A DNA stretch of 54,811 nucleotides. It comes from Candidatus Fermentibacterota bacterium. Its GTDB lineage: Bacteria; Fermentibacterota; Fermentibacteria; Fermentibacterales; JCC-6. This document shows, one piece after another, positions 43,867 through 50,375 of the stretch (position 1 is its first letter; each line of letters begins with the position of its first letter). The DNA lies in the NCBI GenBank assembly GCA_014728175.1, contig WJMA01000004.1, forward strand, positions 1-54,811, in the 5' to 3' direction. Under the pieces are notes generated by a model that saw only the letters and a list, made by a program, of their open reading frames with translations, was not told the origin of the DNA and did not search any database. Both the position numbers and the translations under genes were made by a program.

Positions 43867-45132
43867 CTACCCAACTGGATTCGCCACCCGGCCCATGAAC
43901 AGGATGGTTCCGGTTAGCTCGTCGCGGACCAGGAACAGAAACGGCCTGTCCAGGACCAGCTCGACCGGAGGCTCCGGTATCGAGACGCATTCTACGGCCA
44001 TAACCACGGCGGTTGCCGCGGCCGCCTCTGTTCCCGTCTCGTCCACCTTTACGAAAGCCTTGTGTATCACTGCCGATATGAACAGCTCGGGCCGTCCGAT
44101 GAACCCGCTGAAATCAGCAGCCGCCGACTCGAAGGCATCCGGCATGCCCATGCCGGCCAGCACCTCCGACAGACCGAACGAGCTGGTGAACTCGAACTTC
44201 GGCATCGTCAGATCCACGCTGCGGCGGGACAGACTTATCGTGATGGCCTCCAAAGCTTCCCTGTCCAGGTTCCGCTCGAACTCCAGGATGTCCTCGTCCG
44301 GCATCATTATCAGCATGCTGCTCATGTTGTCGCAGTAGGGCAGGCTGATCGCCCTGCAGCCCATCAGCTCCCCGTAGGCGAACTCCTCTACCTGATGCAT
44401 CATGGGGACCTCTACGATCCTTCCGTCCAGGGTGTTGAACTCCCCGTCGGCGGTCATCCCCTCATCGAACTCGTACAGCCAGGAGCCCTTGAAGTAGACC
44501 GCGTTGGTCAGAACGACCCTGGTCAGGGCGGTTATAACGCCCGGGGGTATCAGGTCCCGTATCCTGTCCCTGGTCTTCTCGGCCACCCATTCGTTGATCG
44601 TCTGCCTAGACCCCTCCGGGTTCATCGTGAAGTCCAGGTTGGTGGCGACCGCCCCGTACTTGGACTCCACGAGCTCGGTGTACTCCTGCAGGAGGGGATA
44701 GCTCTCCTCGACCCACAGGGCGTTGGCGACCTCCAACGTAAGCGCGTCACCCTCGCCGTAGACCAGGGAGGCCCGATACTCCTCGCTCAGCTTCTCCTGC
44801 AGTGAAGCGAAGGCGTCGTGCAGCCCGCTCTGCGGAAGCGTGAAGTGCAGAACGTCGGCCATCTGCGACTCGGTGCTCCCCCTGGCCCCGGCCCAGGTCA
44901 TCCCCAGAGCCGTGGAGATGCTGTAGGGAGAGAAGAAGAGGTTGCCCTCCGTCTCTTCGCCACAGAGCACACCGAAGATGTCCAGCGCGAACTCCGTGTT
45001 GCCCTCCACCAGCTCGGGCATGTCGTCGGTCTCGAAGCCCGAGGCCACCGCGCTGAACAGAAGCACCGCGGCCAGCACTCCCGCCGCAATGTTCCATCGA
45101 CCCCAAAAGCTGACTGCGCTAACCGATGTCAT
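43867..45132 (-). CDS. Serpin (serine protease inhibitor), secreted
   Basis: 421 aa from ATG 45132 (GGGAGGT upstream); the open frame further upstream is not supported. N-terminal membrane/signal segment (about 12-30). The serpin fold is complete: EGNLFFSPYSISTALGMTWAGA, LTNAVYFKGSWLYEF, MPKFEFTSSFGL, and KAFVKVDETGTEAAAAT, the small-residue hinge expected of inhibitory serpins, at about 367. The scissile region (AVVMAVECVSIP) suggests P1 as Glu, Cys or Val. It would trap a protease at the cell surface. A family B repeat lies 78 bp upstream of its start. Confidence 0.92.
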   Translation of the reverse strand: MTSVSAVSFWGRWNIAAGVLAAVLLFSAVASGFETDDMPELVEGNTEFALDIFGVLCGEETEGNLFFSPYSISTALGMTWAGARGSTESQMADVLHFTLPQSGLHDAFASLQEKLSEEYRASLVYGEGDALTLEVANALWVEESYPLLQEYTELVESKYGAVATNLDFTMNPEGSRQTINEWVAEKTRDRIRDLIPPGVITALTRVVLTNAVYFKGSWLYEFDEGMTADGEFNTLDGRIVEVPMMHQVEEFAYGELMGCRAISLPYCDNMSSMLIMMPDEDILEFERNLDREALEAITISLSRRSVDLTMPKFEFTSSFGLSEVLAGMGMPDAFESAAADFSGFIGRPELFISAVIHKAFVKVDETGTEAAAATAVVMAVECVSIPEPPVELVLDRPFLFLVRDELTGTILFMGRVANPVG

Positions 45133-45569
45133 CTCGAATACCTCCCGAAGCTTATGCATTTCCTTAGCCGGTGATTCTACTCCGATACCACTCGGATTAT
45201 TCCGTTCTACGGGGACGGGGGTATGATAAAACCCGAATAAACCCTTATATATCGTCTGGTCATGGGCCGGAGCGTACCCCGCGTTCCTTACATAGCGCAG
45301 GGCCTTCGAACCAGTCATGGGGGCGGCCGCCCTGTTGGGCTCAGTCGTCCTCGGCCTTTATCCTTTTCGGTCGTGACCATACGTGTCGTTTTGAAGAAGC
45401 AGTGCCCCCAGCGTTTCACCCGGTCGCTCCGAGCCAAGCCTGATTGGGATGAAAGATTGATAAAGAGCCGGCCAAAAGACATGTTTGATCCGATATTGCT
45501 GGTGGGGAAAACTACAACCTCCGGCTGGCGTCGCCTCATGTCCGTAGGCCTTCCGGCGAGGAGGTGGCC
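45133..45569. other. Intergenic region with family B repeat before the Mrp operon
   Basis: 437 bp between the divergent serpin and PII-like genes. It holds the repeat at 45211-45241. Several short open frames lack ribosome sites. The operon promoter must be here, but no convincing -35/-10 pair was seen. Confidence 0.45.
45211..45241 (+). repeat. Dispersed repeat family B, copy 8
   Basis: GGGGACGGGGGTATGATAAA plus ACCCGAATAAA; one base change in the core (A to T at position 12). Confidence 0.85.
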
Positions 45570-45911
45570 GTGAAGCTGATGGTCTTCGTTCTGAACGATG
45601 AGGAGCTGCTGGAGCGGGTGCTGGAGGCCTATACAGAGGTCGGCATTCCCGGCGGGACCATTCTCGACTCGGAGGGCATGGGGCGCTTCCTGACCTATGA
45701 GATCCCCCTCTTCGCCGGCTTTCAGAGGTTCATGAAGGGTAACAAGCCCTACAACAAGACCATATTCTCCGTGATCAGGGACGAGAGCCTCATTCCCAAG
45801 CTGCGCGAGCTGCTGAACGAGGTGGTCGGAGACCTGGAGGAACCCGGAACCGGAATACTCTTCACCGTCCCGGTGGACTGGACGGTTGGACTGGCTGAGG
45901 AGGAAAAGTAA
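45570..45911 (+). CDS. PII-like (GlnB-superfamily) small protein
   Basis: 113 aa from a GTG with GAGGAGG upstream. Ferredoxin-like pattern: KLMVFVLNDEELLERVLEAY, GIPGGTILDSEGMG, and a last strand TGILFTVPVDWTVG. This matches PII-like proteins found next to transporters rather than true GlnB (no Tyr51 T-loop motif). Such proteins sense small ligands and bind a membrane partner. Its stop overlaps the ATG of the EIIA gene by 1 bp; the antiporter genes follow. Confidence 0.65.
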   Translation: MKLMVFVLNDEELLERVLEAYTEVGIPGGTILDSEGMGRFLTYEIPLFAGFQRFMKGNKPYNKTIFSVIRDESLIPKLRELLNEVVGDLEEPGTGILFTVPVDWTVGLAEEEK

Positions 45912-46375
45912 TGGCTGTGGACCTGGGCGACCTTTTGGATCCGGCCTGCATCGAGCTCGAGCTGGAGGGGAAGCGGAAGCCCGACATAATCCGCGAGCTG
46001 GTCAACATAATATCCCGCTGCAGTGACCATATCGACCACGAGGAGCTCTACGATGCGCTGATGTGCAGGGAGAACATCAGCAGCACCGGGGTAGGGGACG
46101 GGATAGCCATTCCCCACTGCCTTATCCCGAAGGTTGAGAAAACGCAGATCGCCTTCGGCCGGAAACTCGACGGGGCCAAGTTCGACGCTGTGGACAACAA
46201 GCCGGTCTCCCTGTTCTTTCTGCTGGTGGGGCCGGAGGGCAACCCCACCCACCATCTGCAGGTCCTCAGTAAGCTCGCCCGGTACCTGCACGACCCGATC
46301 TTCTGCCAGAAGCTCCTGGACGCAGACAGTGTAGAGGAGGTAGTGGAAGCAGTCAGAAGCAAGGACCGCGGCTGA
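45911..46375 (+). CDS. PTS EIIA domain protein (fructose/Ntr type)
   Basis: 154 aa, a single EIIA type-2 domain. The phospho-acceptor His is in GIAIPHCLIP (H69), preceded by the usual RENISSTGVGDG. LLVGPEGNPTHHLQVLSKLARYLHD is also typical. No EIIB/EIIC is nearby, so it probably has a regulatory role (PtsN-like) rather than sugar uptake, here presumably on the antiporter encoded next; this is inference from context. Stop and next start share one base. Confidence 0.92.
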   Translation: MAVDLGDLLDPACIELELEGKRKPDIIRELVNIISRCSDHIDHEELYDALMCRENISSTGVGDGIAIPHCLIPKVEKTQIAFGRKLDGAKFDAVDNKPVSLFFLLVGPEGNPTHHLQVLSKLARYLHDPIFCQKLLDADSVEEVVEAVRSKDRG

Positions 46376-46887
46376 TGGATGTGCGAACCCGCTGGGCCGC
46401 GGTTAGGTTCACCATAACTTTTCTCTCCCTCCTCGGGGGATGGCTGCTCTTCACCTGGTCGCTGGACGTCGGATCCGTGCTGGCGGGAATCGCCTCCAGC
46501 CTGTTGGTCTCCGCCCTAACCTACTCCTTCTTCATCGACGAGACCGAAGCCGGCCGCAGGGCCCACTTGCCGCGGGTACACGTGTTCCTGCTCTTCGTCT
46601 GCCTGCTGGTCTTCAACATGTACGTGGCCAGCTTCCGGGTCCTCTGGAAGATCGTCAAAGGCGACATCAATCCCAGGGTGGTCCACTTCCGGACTCGTCT
46701 GAAGACCGATATAGCCAGAGTGGCCCTGACCAGCTCCATCACCCTTACCCCGGGTACCATCACCCTGGACCTGACCGAAGATCACCTGATTGTGCACTGG
46801 CTGGACGCGCAGACCACCCATTCCCGTTACGCCGGGGAGCTGATCAAGGGCATGTACGAGAAACTCCTGAAGCGGGTCTGGCTCTGA
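46375..46887 (+). CDS. mnhE: Na+/H+ antiporter subunit MnhE/MrpE
   Basis: 170 aa. Two to three N-terminal helices, then the conserved VALTSSITLTPGTITLDL and a cytoplasmic C-terminal domain (LIVHWLDAQT), typical of MrpE. Accessory subunit of the multisubunit monovalent cation/proton antiporter. Overlaps both neighbours by one base. Confidence 0.95.
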   Translation: MDVRTRWAAVRFTITFLSLLGGWLLFTWSLDVGSVLAGIASSLLVSALTYSFFIDETEAGRRAHLPRVHVFLLFVCLLVFNMYVASFRVLWKIVKGDINPRVVHFRTRLKTDIARVALTSSITLTPGTITLDLTEDHLIVHWLDAQTTHSRYAGELIKGMYEKLLKRVWL

Positions 46888-47144
46888 TGTTGGTCTACGC
46901 GATGTACTTCCTGGTGATCTCCATCCTGGTGAGCATGGCCAGGGTGGTAATCGGGCCCACCGTGGCCGACAGGATGGTCGGACTCAACCTGGTGACGGCC
47001 CAGACCCTGGCCTTGCTGGTGGTGATCTCGGTCTCCAAAGAGAGGCTGATTCTGCTGGACGTGGCCCTGGTCTACGACATCTTCGGCTTCGTGGGGATCC
47101 TGGTGATGACCCGCTACTTCTCCGGCCGTAGGGGGGAGCTGTGA
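46887..47144 (+). CDS. mnhF: Na+/H+ antiporter subunit MnhF/MrpF
   Basis: 85 aa, three helices. GPTVADRMVGLNLVTAQTLALL and DVALVYDIFGFVGILVMTRY are diagnostic for MrpF. ATG overlaps the previous stop. Confidence 0.94.
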   Translation: MLVYAMYFLVISILVSMARVVIGPTVADRMVGLNLVTAQTLALLVVISVSKERLILLDVALVYDIFGFVGILVMTRYFSGRRGEL

Positions 47145-47470
47145 ACGTCGCGGCGCTGGTTTTCCTGGTCCTGGGGGCGGTGTTCAACATAATGGGCAAC
47201 CTGGGCGTCCTGATCTTTCCCGACGTCTACACCAGGCTGCAGGCATCCTCCACATGCAGCACCACATCCGTGCTGTCTTTTTTCATAGGCTGCATGCTGA
47301 TCGCCGGTTGGGGCCCCATGACCGGAAGACTGTTGGTGATCACCATCTTCTTCTTCATAACCAACCCCATCGCGGCCCACATCATCGCCCGTTTTGCCCG
47401 GCAGACGGGCATCGTGCCCTGGCGGCAGAGCTTCAGGAAAGACCCGGAGAGCGGAGAGCAGGATGGTTGA
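47141..47470 (+). CDS. mnhG: Na+/H+ antiporter subunit MnhG/MrpG
   Basis: 109 aa from a GTG overlapping the MnhF stop. Three helices; GNLGVLIFPDVYTRLQASST and ITNPIAAHIIARFA are typical of MrpG. Confidence 0.94.
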   Translation: MNVAALVFLVLGAVFNIMGNLGVLIFPDVYTRLQASSTCSTTSVLSFFIGCMLIAGWGPMTGRLLVITIFFFITNPIAAHIIARFARQTGIVPWRQSFRKDPESGEQDG

Positions 47471-47696
47471 GGTCCTTCTGGCGCTGATGGTCGTGAACTC
47501 CATTCTGGCTCTCCAGATAAGGGACATGCTGGCCGCCGTCCTTCTGCTGGGGGCGTTCAGCCTTCTCAGCTGCCTGGTCTTCTTCCTGATGAACGCTCCC
47601 GACGTGGCCCTTACCGAGGCCGCCGTAGGCACGGGTGTGGGCACCGTGGTGCTGATCTGGATAGTCTACAAGACCGAGAGAAGGGATGAGGCGTGA
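47463..47696 (+). CDS. DUF4040/MbhD-like subunit (MrpA C-terminal-like)
   Basis: 77 aa with three helices. The conserved MNAPDVALTEAAVGTGVGTV segment is that of the MrpA C-terminal region, here a separate small protein as in archaeal Mbh/Mbx complexes (MbhD). Overlaps both neighbours (8 bp before, 4 bp after). Confidence 0.9.
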   Translation: MVEVLLALMVVNSILALQIRDMLAAVLLLGAFSLLSCLVFFLMNAPDVALTEAAVGTGVGTVVLIWIVYKTERRDEA

Positions 47697-47986
47697 AGAG
47701 CGGCCACCTGTTAACGGTGCTGGAGGTGGCTCTGCTTCTCCTCACCGCCCTCTTCCTGCTGCAGGCCCTGCAGGGGCCGCACCCCGAATCCTCGGACGTG
47801 CGGGGATATCTGGTGGAGAACGGAAGCCATGAGACGGGAGCCCTGAATCTGGTCACGGCCATCTATCTGGGATACAGGGCCTTCGATACCATGGGAGAGA
47901 TCGTAGTTCTTCTGGTGGCCGTTACCGGCGTGATCTACTTCGCCGCATCAAGGGAGAGGAAAGATGAAGAAGACCACGATTCTTGA
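47693..47986 (+). CDS. MbhE-like subunit (MrpA/MrpB-junction-like)
   Basis: 97 aa from a GTG. Two helices flanking a loop with NGSHETGALNLVTAIYLGYRAFDTMGE split, the region that in full MrpA lies at the very C-terminus and in Mbh complexes is the MbhE subunit. Overlaps MnhB by 23 bp. Confidence 0.85.
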   Translation: MKSGHLLTVLEVALLLLTALFLLQALQGPHPESSDVRGYLVENGSHETGALNLVTAIYLGYRAFDTMGEIVVLLVAVTGVIYFAASRERKDEEDHDS

Positions 47987-48383
47987 TCTGGTCTCCCGGA
48001 AGCTGGCTCCCTTCATGCTGCTGTTCGGCCTCTACCTGCTCTCCTACGGGCACATGTCGCCGGGGGGAGGTTTCCAGGGGGGAGTGGTTATAGCCTCCGG
48101 CGTCATACTGCTGTTCGTAGCCCAGGGGGTGGGGACTACGGCATCGCTATTTCCGTTCCGGACCCTCTCTCTGGTGGAGGCCGCCGCCTTCCTGCTGCTG
48201 TTGGCTGCGGGGCTGGCGGGTCTGGCGGCCGGTGCCGGCTTCCTGGGCAACCCCATGGCCGGCGTGGACGTCCGCGCCGTGCCCCGGGTGAGCATGATAC
48301 TGGTCTACAACGTGCTCATCGGCCTCAAGGTCGGCGCCGGAATCAGCTTCGTGTGCATGTACCTCTTCCGGGAGGGCCGATGA
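47964..48383 (+). CDS. mnhB: Na+/H+ antiporter subunit MnhB/MrpB
   Basis: 139 aa with four helices. YGHMSPGGGFQGGVVIASG is the MrpB signature; LVYNVLIGLKVGAGISF follows. Overlaps the next gene by 4 bp. Confidence 0.95.
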   Translation: MKKTTILDLVSRKLAPFMLLFGLYLLSYGHMSPGGGFQGGVVIASGVILLFVAQGVGTTASLFPFRTLSLVEAAAFLLLLAAGLAGLAAGAGFLGNPMAGVDVRAVPRVSMILVYNVLIGLKVGAGISFVCMYLFREGR

Positions 48384-48718
48384 CCTGGATTCTGATCTGC
48401 GCGATCTTCGTAGTGGGCCTGTGGGGAATCACCCACCAGGCCAACATGGTGAAGAAGGTGATGGGCCTGAGCATCGCCAACAGCGCCATCATCCTGCTCT
48501 TCGTCTACTACGGCTCGCTGTCGGGAACCACGGCGCCCATAGAGGGCAGCGGGGACCCGATGGTGGATCCGCTCCCCCAGGCCCTGATGCTCACTGCGAT
48601 AGTGGTGGCGGTCTGCGTGATGTCCCTGGCCCTGGTAATCGTCTACCGGCTCTACCAGAGGTTCGGAACCCTGGACATCCGCGGGGTCGAGCGGGGGGCA
48701 TGGAAGCTGAATGACTGA
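48380..48718 (+). CDS. mnhC: Na+/H+ antiporter subunit MnhC/MrpC (NuoK-like)
   Basis: 112 aa with three helices. GLSIANSAIILLFVYYG holds the place of the NuoK glutamate helix, and DPLPQALMLTAIVVAVCVMS is typical of MrpC. Overlaps MnhD by 8 bp. Confidence 0.94.
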   Translation: MTWILICAIFVVGLWGITHQANMVKKVMGLSIANSAIILLFVYYGSLSGTTAPIEGSGDPMVDPLPQALMLTAIVVAVCVMSLALVIVYRLYQRFGTLDIRGVERGAWKLND

Positions 48719-50375
48719 GGGCCTCGTCGTCTGGGTTATGCTAGCCCCCCTGCTGGGTGCCGTTACCGCCCTCTTGGGCAAGCTCCTGAGACCGCTGCAG
48801 AGACCGCTCTCCATCCTGGGAACGGCATCGCTGGCGGTTCCAGCGGTCATTCTGACGTTGCTGTTGGGCCCAGTGATGTCGGGGGAGAGCCTCCGGTACG
48901 CCCTGGGCGGGTGGCCCGAGCCCTACGGAATCTCCCTGGTGCTGGACGGAATCTCCTGGTTCTCCTGCGCCATCACCACGGTCATAGCCGCCGCCGTAGC
49001 CCTCTTCTCCCTGGGCCGCAGAAGGTACGAAGCGGGCTACTTCTTCTTCTTGCTGATCATGGTGGCGGGCATGTACGGCGTCGCCCTCACCGGCGACCTG
49101 TTCACCCTGTTCGTCAGCTTCGAGGTGGTGGCGGTCACCGTGTACGTGCTCATCGCCTGGGAGGAGACGGACACCGGGCTGGCGGCCAGCTACAAGTACC
49201 TGATCCTAAGCACGGTGGGCATCCTGTTCTTCCTCTTCGGGATCTTTCTGGTCTACCGCGACCTGGGCGTCCTCTCCATCTCCCTTATATCCCGGGCCCT
49301 GGCCGAAGCCGGGGGGGTGCGCAACACCCGGTTCATGCATCTGGCCCTGGCCTTCCTGTGCGGCGGCATCGGAGTCCGGACGGCATTCATACCCTTCCAT
49401 ACCTGGCTGCCCGAGGCCCACGCCTACGCGCCTCACCCCATATCCGCCATGCTGTCCGGGGCCATGATAAAGGTGTCCTTCTTCGCCCTGGTCAGGGTAG
49501 TTCTGGAGTTCGGAGGAACCTATCTTTTCGAGCTTCTCATGTGGATCGGGGCCGTAACCGCCTTGGCGGCCGTCTTGAGCGCCCTGGCCCAGAGCGACGT
49601 CAAGAGGCTTCTGGCCTATCACTCCATCTCCCAGCTGGGCTACGTGCTGGCCGTCTTCGGGGCCGGCTCCGCCCTGGCCCTGACCGCCTCCTTCTCCCAT
49701 GCCCTCAACCACGCTCTCTTCAAGAGCCTTCTCTTCCTGACGGTGGGCGCCGCGGTCAGCTTCACCGGGCACAGGAACATCCACAGGATACCGCCCCTGG
49801 GACGCACGATGCCGCTCTTCTCCGCCGCCTTCTTCGCGGGGGCCCTCTCCATTTCCGGGATACCGCCTTTCAACGGCTTCGCGAGCAAGGGCCTCATAAC
49901 CACCGGTATGGAGGGCTCGGCCGCCTACCCGCTGCTGTGGGTCACGAGCTTTCTGACCATCGCCAGCTTCATCAAGCTGAGCCGCATCTTCCTTCCCGGT
50001 CCCCGCCGGGCCGGCACCACGCCAAGCAGCGGCAATTCCAACCAAGGCAGCGTTCCGGGGATTCTGCAGACCTCCGTAGTCACCGTTCTGGCCATCCTCT
50101 GCCTGGGCACCGGTATGTTCGGAGGATCCATGGCCCACGGCCTGTACCGGATCATTCACGGCACCGCCCCGGACGCCATCCCCCGGCTGTTCTCCGCCAA
50201 AAAGCTTCTGGGAGTGCTGCCGGCGGTCCTGCTGGGCACCGCCGCGTTCGTAGGCGTCTCCACCCAATGGGGACGGCAGATCGCGGGCAGGATCAGACGG
50301 ATGGCCCCGGAGCTCCGCACCGTTCTCCTCTTCTTCTTCGTCGGCCTTCTGGTTTTCGCCGTCGTTGCCTACTGA
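48711..50375 (+). CDS. mnhD: Na+/H+ antiporter subunit MnhD/MrpD (NuoN/M-like)
   Basis: 554 aa, about 14 helices, the single large antiporter-type subunit of this operon. Expected motifs: FVSFEVVAVTVYVLIAWEE (TM5 Glu), AFIPFHTWLPEAHAYAP (TM7-8 Lys/His region), LAYHSISQLGYV and HALNHALFKSLLFL. Last gene of the operon. A full-length MrpA (about 800 aa) is missing upstream; its C-terminal parts are the two small subunits before mnhB. Confidence 0.95.
   Translation: MTEGLVVWVMLAPLLGAVTALLGKLLRPLQRPLSILGTASLAVPAVILTLLLGPVMSGESLRYALGGWPEPYGISLVLDGISWFSCAITTVIAAAVALFSLGRRRYEAGYFFFLLIMVAGMYGVALTGDLFTLFVSFEVVAVTVYVLIAWEETDTGLAASYKYLILSTVGILFFLFGIFLVYRDLGVLSISLISRALAEAGGVRNTRFMHLALAFLCGGIGVRTAFIPFHTWLPEAHAYAPHPISAMLSGAMIKVSFFALVRVVLEFGGTYLFELLMWIGAVTALAAVLSALAQSDVKRLLAYHSISQLGYVLAVFGAGSALALTASFSHALNHALFKSLLFLTVGAAVSFTGHRNIHRIPPLGRTMPLFSAAFFAGALSISGIPPFNGFASKGLITTGMEGSAAYPLLWVTSFLTIASFIKLSRIFLPGPRRAGTTPSSGNSNQGSVPGILQTSVVTVLAILCLGTGMFGGSMAHGLYRIIHGTAPDAIPRLFSAKKLLGVLPAVLLGTAAFVGVSTQWGRQIAGRIRRMAPELRTVLLFFFVGLLVFAVVAY

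Follow-up and report, generated by a model that had tools for sequence, protein, structure and literature searches.

The window analyzed here, a stretch of 54,811 nucleotides from a Candidatus Fermentibacterota bacterium, carries ten tightly packed or overlapping genes on the + strand (45570-50375 in the list of open reading frames, ORFs), which encode in this order a PII-like protein, an EIIA protein of the phosphotransferase system (PTS), MrpE, MrpF, MrpG, an MbhD-like and an MbhE-like protein, MrpB, MrpC and MrpD. With a probability of roughly two in three, these genes specify a Mrp antiporter with a dedicated two-input regulator, in which EIIA would report on the PTS, the PII-like protein would sense a ligand, and both would gate the antiporter. 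This reading is based on the gene set itself, the assignment of the first two products to the PII and EIIA families, a conserved phospho-histidine, the presence of EI and HPr in the genome, and a recurrent association of the two domains, linked or fused, with two antiporter classes that are unrelated to each other.

In the mechanism that we infer, including the complex between the proteins, the ligand, the ion and the sense in which control is exerted, EIIA would receive phosphate from HPr and its state would report phosphoenolpyruvate/PTS activity, while the PII-like protein would sense a small ligand. Jointly, the two proteins would attach to the antiporter at its cytoplasmic face and switch it between open and closed, by analogy with GlnK-AmtB, SbtB-SbtA and PtsN-YcgO, and the first two of these pairs suggest that the PII-like protein may dock on this face. 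The pairing, which is found beside antiporters in at least four bacterial phyla, probably couples salt and pH balance to the metabolic state of the cell. The original prediction that PTS and PII-like regulators adjust ion transport is supported, at the level of sequence, by the genomic linkage, the presence of ptsH and ptsI, and the conserved EIIA histidine. With somewhat less confidence, we favor the broader view that EIIA and a non-canonical PII protein constitute a general two-input cassette for cation/proton antiporters, fused or split, which would serve both Mrp and single-gene cation/proton antiporters (CPA) in Spirochaetota, Fermentibacterota, Fibrobacterota and Aerophobota and join PTS phosphorylation and a new PII ligand in Na+/H+ balance.

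Recurrence of the regulators with antiporters

A survey of genomes for the gene order, as called for by the original prediction, was carried out on 84,980 species using three close PII-like proteins as bait; antiporters were never used as bait in any recurrence search. The scan gave 79 loci; linkage was counted over the 73 of them in which the PII gene could be read and the sequence was long enough. The PII-like gene continues into a Mrp operon from MrpE onward, in the same (Mbh) order, in 71 of these 73 loci, nearly all of them with an EIIA gene between. The loci belong mostly to Spirochaetota, and also to Aerophobota, Fibrobacterota and the Fermentibacterota relatives of the window. Chance association is excluded by this recurrence. 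It could be argued that an ordinary sugar-PTS EIIA lies by chance in a Mrp operon beside an unrelated small protein, since EIIA is a common domain and the genome holds five more EIIAs besides that of the operon, but this is scarcely credible, being already contradicted by the linkage count and by the fusions described below.

The arrangement varies among the loci. In a spirochaete (L071), PII and EIIA are fused in one ORF before MrpE. Locus L116 holds a PII-Mrp operon without its own EIIA, and directly 3' of it lies a CPA antiporter gene whose product carries an EIIA domain at its C-terminus (L116:12760-14595). The PII gene is found, together with Mrp, in 8 of 17 Aerophobota genomes, and at one Aerophobota locus (L217) it lies inside the Mrp operon. 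In a tree of PII, MrpE, MrpC, MrpD and MrpB, the window and its relative fall within the spirochaetes (Shimodaira-Hasegawa-like approximate likelihood ratio support 99), which suggests that the operon was acquired by transfer from Spirochaetota.

A second antiporter class is involved as well. Searches with the window PII-like protein also match the C-terminal halves of proteins of about 275 residues in which EIIA makes up the N-terminal half; in the fusion proteins tested, Pfam recognizes the EIIA half only. A Na_H_Exchanger (PF00999) gene stands next to these EIIA-PII fusions in all 31 Fermentibacterota loci that extend far enough, in 8 of 8 Spirochaetota loci and in 3 of 3 Fibrobacterota loci. 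The window genome itself has two of them next to single-gene PF00999 antiporters, on contig 65 (L044:5971-8053) and contig 17 (L045:4291-6384). Unfused PII, or EIIA plus PII, stands beside CPA genes in three Aerophobota loci (L211-L213), with EIIA lacking in L211 and L213.

The stand-alone group 3 Mrp antiporters have no known energy-input module (PMC8415708), and the pair might be imagined to be such a module in place of MrpA, with phosphoryl transfer driving ion transport. This idea is very improbable: the same pair stands beside CPA antiporters, which need no extra drive, and the Mrp of Pyrococcus furiosus is active in vivo although no such genes were reported for its operon (PMC8415708). 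Linkage, fusion in both orders and the two unrelated antiporter classes lead us to conclude that the antiporter is most likely the joint target of both domains.

Separately from these loci, a protein of 215-221 residues with PII similarity adjoins a large integral membrane protein in spirochaetes (L174:6402-8527 and L176:3990-6093). We take the membrane protein to be DUF1538-like; this could be another PII-transporter pair.

The PII-like protein

The first gene (45570-45911, + strand) encodes 113 residues from a GTG codon. A ribosome-binding GGAGG box lies just 5' of this codon, which bears out the predicted start at 45570, and the stop codon overlaps the start of the EIIA gene (TAATG). The protein alone misses the Pfam P-II cut-off (E 0.0011), so Pfam names only nine of the ten operon genes, but PF00543 (P-II) matches all 40 of its aligned relatives (best 4.6e-8) and the PDB matches of their profile are mostly PII proteins. 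The AlphaFold model (predicted local distance difference test score, pLDDT, 82) resembles solved PII and PII-like proteins, with a Foldseek E value of 2.7e-5 to GlnK1 and VIA Z scores of 10.9 to PotN, 10.7 to SbtB and about 10 to GlnK1. The protein is a real but distant member of the PII superfamily, and probably forms a trimer as other PII proteins do.

It is the best conserved part of the operon, with a median identity of 67% versus 38-52% for the other products, and the ratio of non-synonymous to synonymous substitution rates is 0.12 against locus L065. A new block, FMKGNKPYNKTI, is almost invariant among its relatives. A weak profile match to the c-di-AMP receptor PstA (E 0.7 with a 12-row alignment) was gone when 40 rows were aligned, and c-di-AMP is therefore not argued as the ligand.

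EIIA and the phosphotransferase system

The EIIA gene (45911-46375, + strand) matches PF00359 (EIIA_2, 6e-31), and its nearest solved relatives are EIIA-Ntr/PtsN proteins. Against the NCBIfam PtsN equivalog TIGR01419 it scores 98 bits, where the cut-off is 138.7; it was therefore regarded as a relative of PtsN and not as PtsN proper. Its phospho-acceptor, His69, aligns with the GIAIPH site of PtsN, and this histidine is shared by 95 of the 96 EIIAs in the alignment. A probable source of phosphate is present as well: ptsH and ptsI were found side by side in this genome, next to a gene that reads as HPr kinase, and EI was present in 19/19 further carrier genomes tested versus 7/14 control genomes. 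Of the six EIIAs of the genome, the three accompanied by a PII domain all lie with antiporter genes, and the other three do not.

Evidence against joint regulation and alternative explanations

Several observations weigh against joint regulation of the antiporter by a ligand and the PTS. The T-loop region of the PII-like model is of low confidence, and in the alignment the protein has GxGRF... and GTGILF where canonical PII proteins have GxGQQK... and GDGKIF. The canonical ATP/2-oxoglutarate positions (Q39 and the B-loop GDGKIF) thus presumably are lost, and the protein lacks these marks of a canonical nitrogen PII (GlnB/GlnK). Ligand sensing is therefore argued from the fold and the conservation. 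Furthermore, one locus (L106) and two from Aerophobota (L209, L210) combine PII with Mrp but have no EIIA, which shows that EIIA can be dispensed with. In other loci it is the antiporter that is missing: L132 and L133 are second, Mrp-free copies of the PII plus EIIA pair, from genomes in which a copy with Mrp is present too, L177 is a PII plus EIIA pair without an adjoining antiporter, and at L168:2065-2930 and L169:6360-7222 EIIA and the PII-like gene occur in reverse order between unrelated genes, with no antiporter nearby.

The loci without EIIA, including L211 and L213 beside CPA genes, fit the idea that the PII-like protein alone gates the antiporter, while EIIA, as its partner in the cytosol, modifies or titrates it (or the reverse) and the PTS acts indirectly. 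The much stronger conservation of PII, with EIIA among the least conserved parts of the operon, points the same way. This alternative is possible but rather unlikely, as the EIIA histidine is kept almost throughout; the two fusion orders are equally compatible with a joint regulator. From the pairs without an antiporter it might instead be supposed that the pair regulates carbon, nitrogen or phosphate metabolism, and that Mrp and CPA are only co-transcribed with it since salt and energy state shift together. We regard this as improbable, because an association across four phyla and two unrelated antiporter classes, with fusions and gene overlap, is hard to explain by co-transcription alone.

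Antiporter subunits and the absence of MrpA

Mrp antiporters share ancestry with the membrane arm of complex I. The remaining eight genes, all on the + strand, were assigned as follows. MrpE (MbhA-like, 46375-46887) matches PF01899 (MNHE, 1e-32), and MrpF (MbhB-like, 46884-47144, start codon approximate) matches PF04066 (MrpF, 4e-13) and the MbsB, MbhB and MrpF chains, and retains the Asp of the GPTxxDR motif. MrpG (MbhC-like, 47141-47470) matches PF03334 (MrpG, 3e-22). MrpA is represented only by pieces of its C-terminal part: the MbhD-like protein (47463-47696, start approximate; PF13244, MbhD, 2e-20) and the MbhE-like protein (47693-47986; PF20501, MbhE, 1e-8), which aligns with MbsE, MbhE and the MrpA C-terminus and retains the DTxGE glutamate in that alignment. 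They are followed by MrpB (MbhF-like, 47964-48383; PF04039, MnhB, 1e-24), MrpC (MbhG-like, 48380-48718, start approximate; PF00420, Oxidored_q2, 9e-23) and MrpD (MbhH-like, 48711-50375; PF00361, Proton_antipo_M, 4e-57), the sole large antiporter subunit.

MrpD was aligned to the Mbh, Mbs and Mrp structures, and among the solved chains it is nearest to MbhH and MbsH, then to Bacillus MrpD. Glu138 of transmembrane helix (TM) 5, Lys254 of TM8 and Lys393 of TM12 are retained, and the TM7 lysine is replaced by Arg223. When this residue was surveyed in 53 MrpD sequences of the same operon type, 49 had Arg and 4 had Lys. It has been reported that the TM7 lysine, with its glutamate partner, is strictly conserved (PMC9568556); the arginine may alter the proton-transfer step. 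In four other loci (L098, L100, L104 and L112), the operon ends in two tandem MrpD-like genes and not in one.

A separate mrpA completing a standard antiporter, which would speak against a system with a single large subunit, was looked for, and no free-standing mrpA was found in this genome, whose 96% completeness makes a missed copy possible. The other PF00361 genes number four, two each in two hydrogenase-like operons. No hydrogenase-like large or small subunit was found among the ORFs after 50375, in agreement with the original prediction. With E, F, G, B, C and a MrpD homologue recognized by Pfam and no mrpA gene, the operon has the gene content of group 3 Mrp, and by sequence it most likely encodes a group 3 Mrp-type (CPA3) cation/proton antiporter for Na+/H+ exchange. 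The single large subunit had been presented as unusual: the absence of MrpA and the Mbh-like subunit order hold, but the trait itself is already known, because a stand-alone group 3 Mrp without MrpA has been described in P. furiosus (PMC8415708).

The two hydrogenase-like complexes, each of which includes Mrp subunits of its own, lie elsewhere in the genome (L006:3139-14362 and L007:1461-12159). As read from the sequence, a large subunit of the former has CxxC motifs in pairs, like NiFe hydrogenases, whereas its counterpart in the latter is without them, as in Mbs/Mbx; the latter complex sits behind a Rex-like repressor gene.

Operon limits and neighboring genes

The operon is real and complete; the ORF list and Pfam agree on the content and order of the ten genes, as noted in the original prediction. 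Promoter and terminator scans of the operon gave nothing better than shuffled sequence. A serpin-like protease inhibitor gene on the - strand (43867-45318), divergent from and before the operon, and a flavin-reductase-like ORF 3' of MrpD were both excluded from it.

Novelty and significance

In the open full-text literature (subscription literature being outside the scope), no paper joining a PII-like protein, EIIA and Mrp was found, which agrees with the earlier impression that the arrangement had not been described. PII and the PTS are absent from the Mrp review examined, and a dedicated soluble Mrp regulator was found neither there nor in the open full-text searches. The new part is the regulators: the antiporter class and the regulator families are each known, but their combination apparently had not been described. 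The pair is a candidate dedicated soluble Mrp regulator that occurs in cultivable anaerobes, with Breznakiella homolactica and Sphaerochaeta halotolerans among the carriers that can be grown, and it would offer a direct route from carbon and energy status to ion homeostasis. It also adds a new PII group, for which a ligand can be sought, and in the CPA-linked fusions tested the PII domain is one that Pfam overlooks.

Comparison with known systems

PII-type proteins that plug or gate transporters are known from GlnK-AmtB and SbtB-SbtA. The window protein shares with them the PII fold, at a VIA Z of about 10 to SbtB and GlnK1, and a gene adjoining that of a transporter, but those systems involve another transporter class and no EIIA partner, and the T-loop and nucleotide-loop residues of the window protein are non-canonical. 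For EIIA, the closest precedent is the unphosphorylated PtsN of E. coli, which binds and inhibits the K+/H+ antiporter YcgO (PMC11808508). Both cases combine an EIIA-Ntr-like protein, in the window one with PtsN proteins as nearest solved relatives, with a cation/proton antiporter; YcgO differs in being a CPA1 protein with its own RCK/CorC domains. PtsN is not known to be encoded with YcgO, and no PII partner is known there.

On the antiporter side, the eight-subunit order is that of MbhA-H in the Mbh/Mbs membrane arm, and the difference is that no hydrogenase or sulfane reductase genes follow in the window; two such complexes are encoded elsewhere in the genome. The closest system is the stand-alone Mrp of P. 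furiosus (PF1147-53, mrpEFGBB'CD), a group 3 antiporter without MrpA whose deletion gives greater sensitivity to acidification and whose coupling ion is likely Na+ (PMC8415708); by analogy, the ion transported by the window antiporter is probably Na+. The two agree in subunit order, in the lack of MrpA, in the single MrpD and in the absence of hydrogenase genes. They differ in that MbhD and MbhE are fused as MrpB in P. furiosus, that the TM7 lysine of MrpD is mostly arginine in the window operon type, and that its description mentions neither a PII-like nor an EIIA gene. The trio found in the window genome, namely an Mbh-like complex, an Mbs/Mbx-like complex and a stand-alone Mrp, is the same set as described for P. 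furiosus (PMC8415708).

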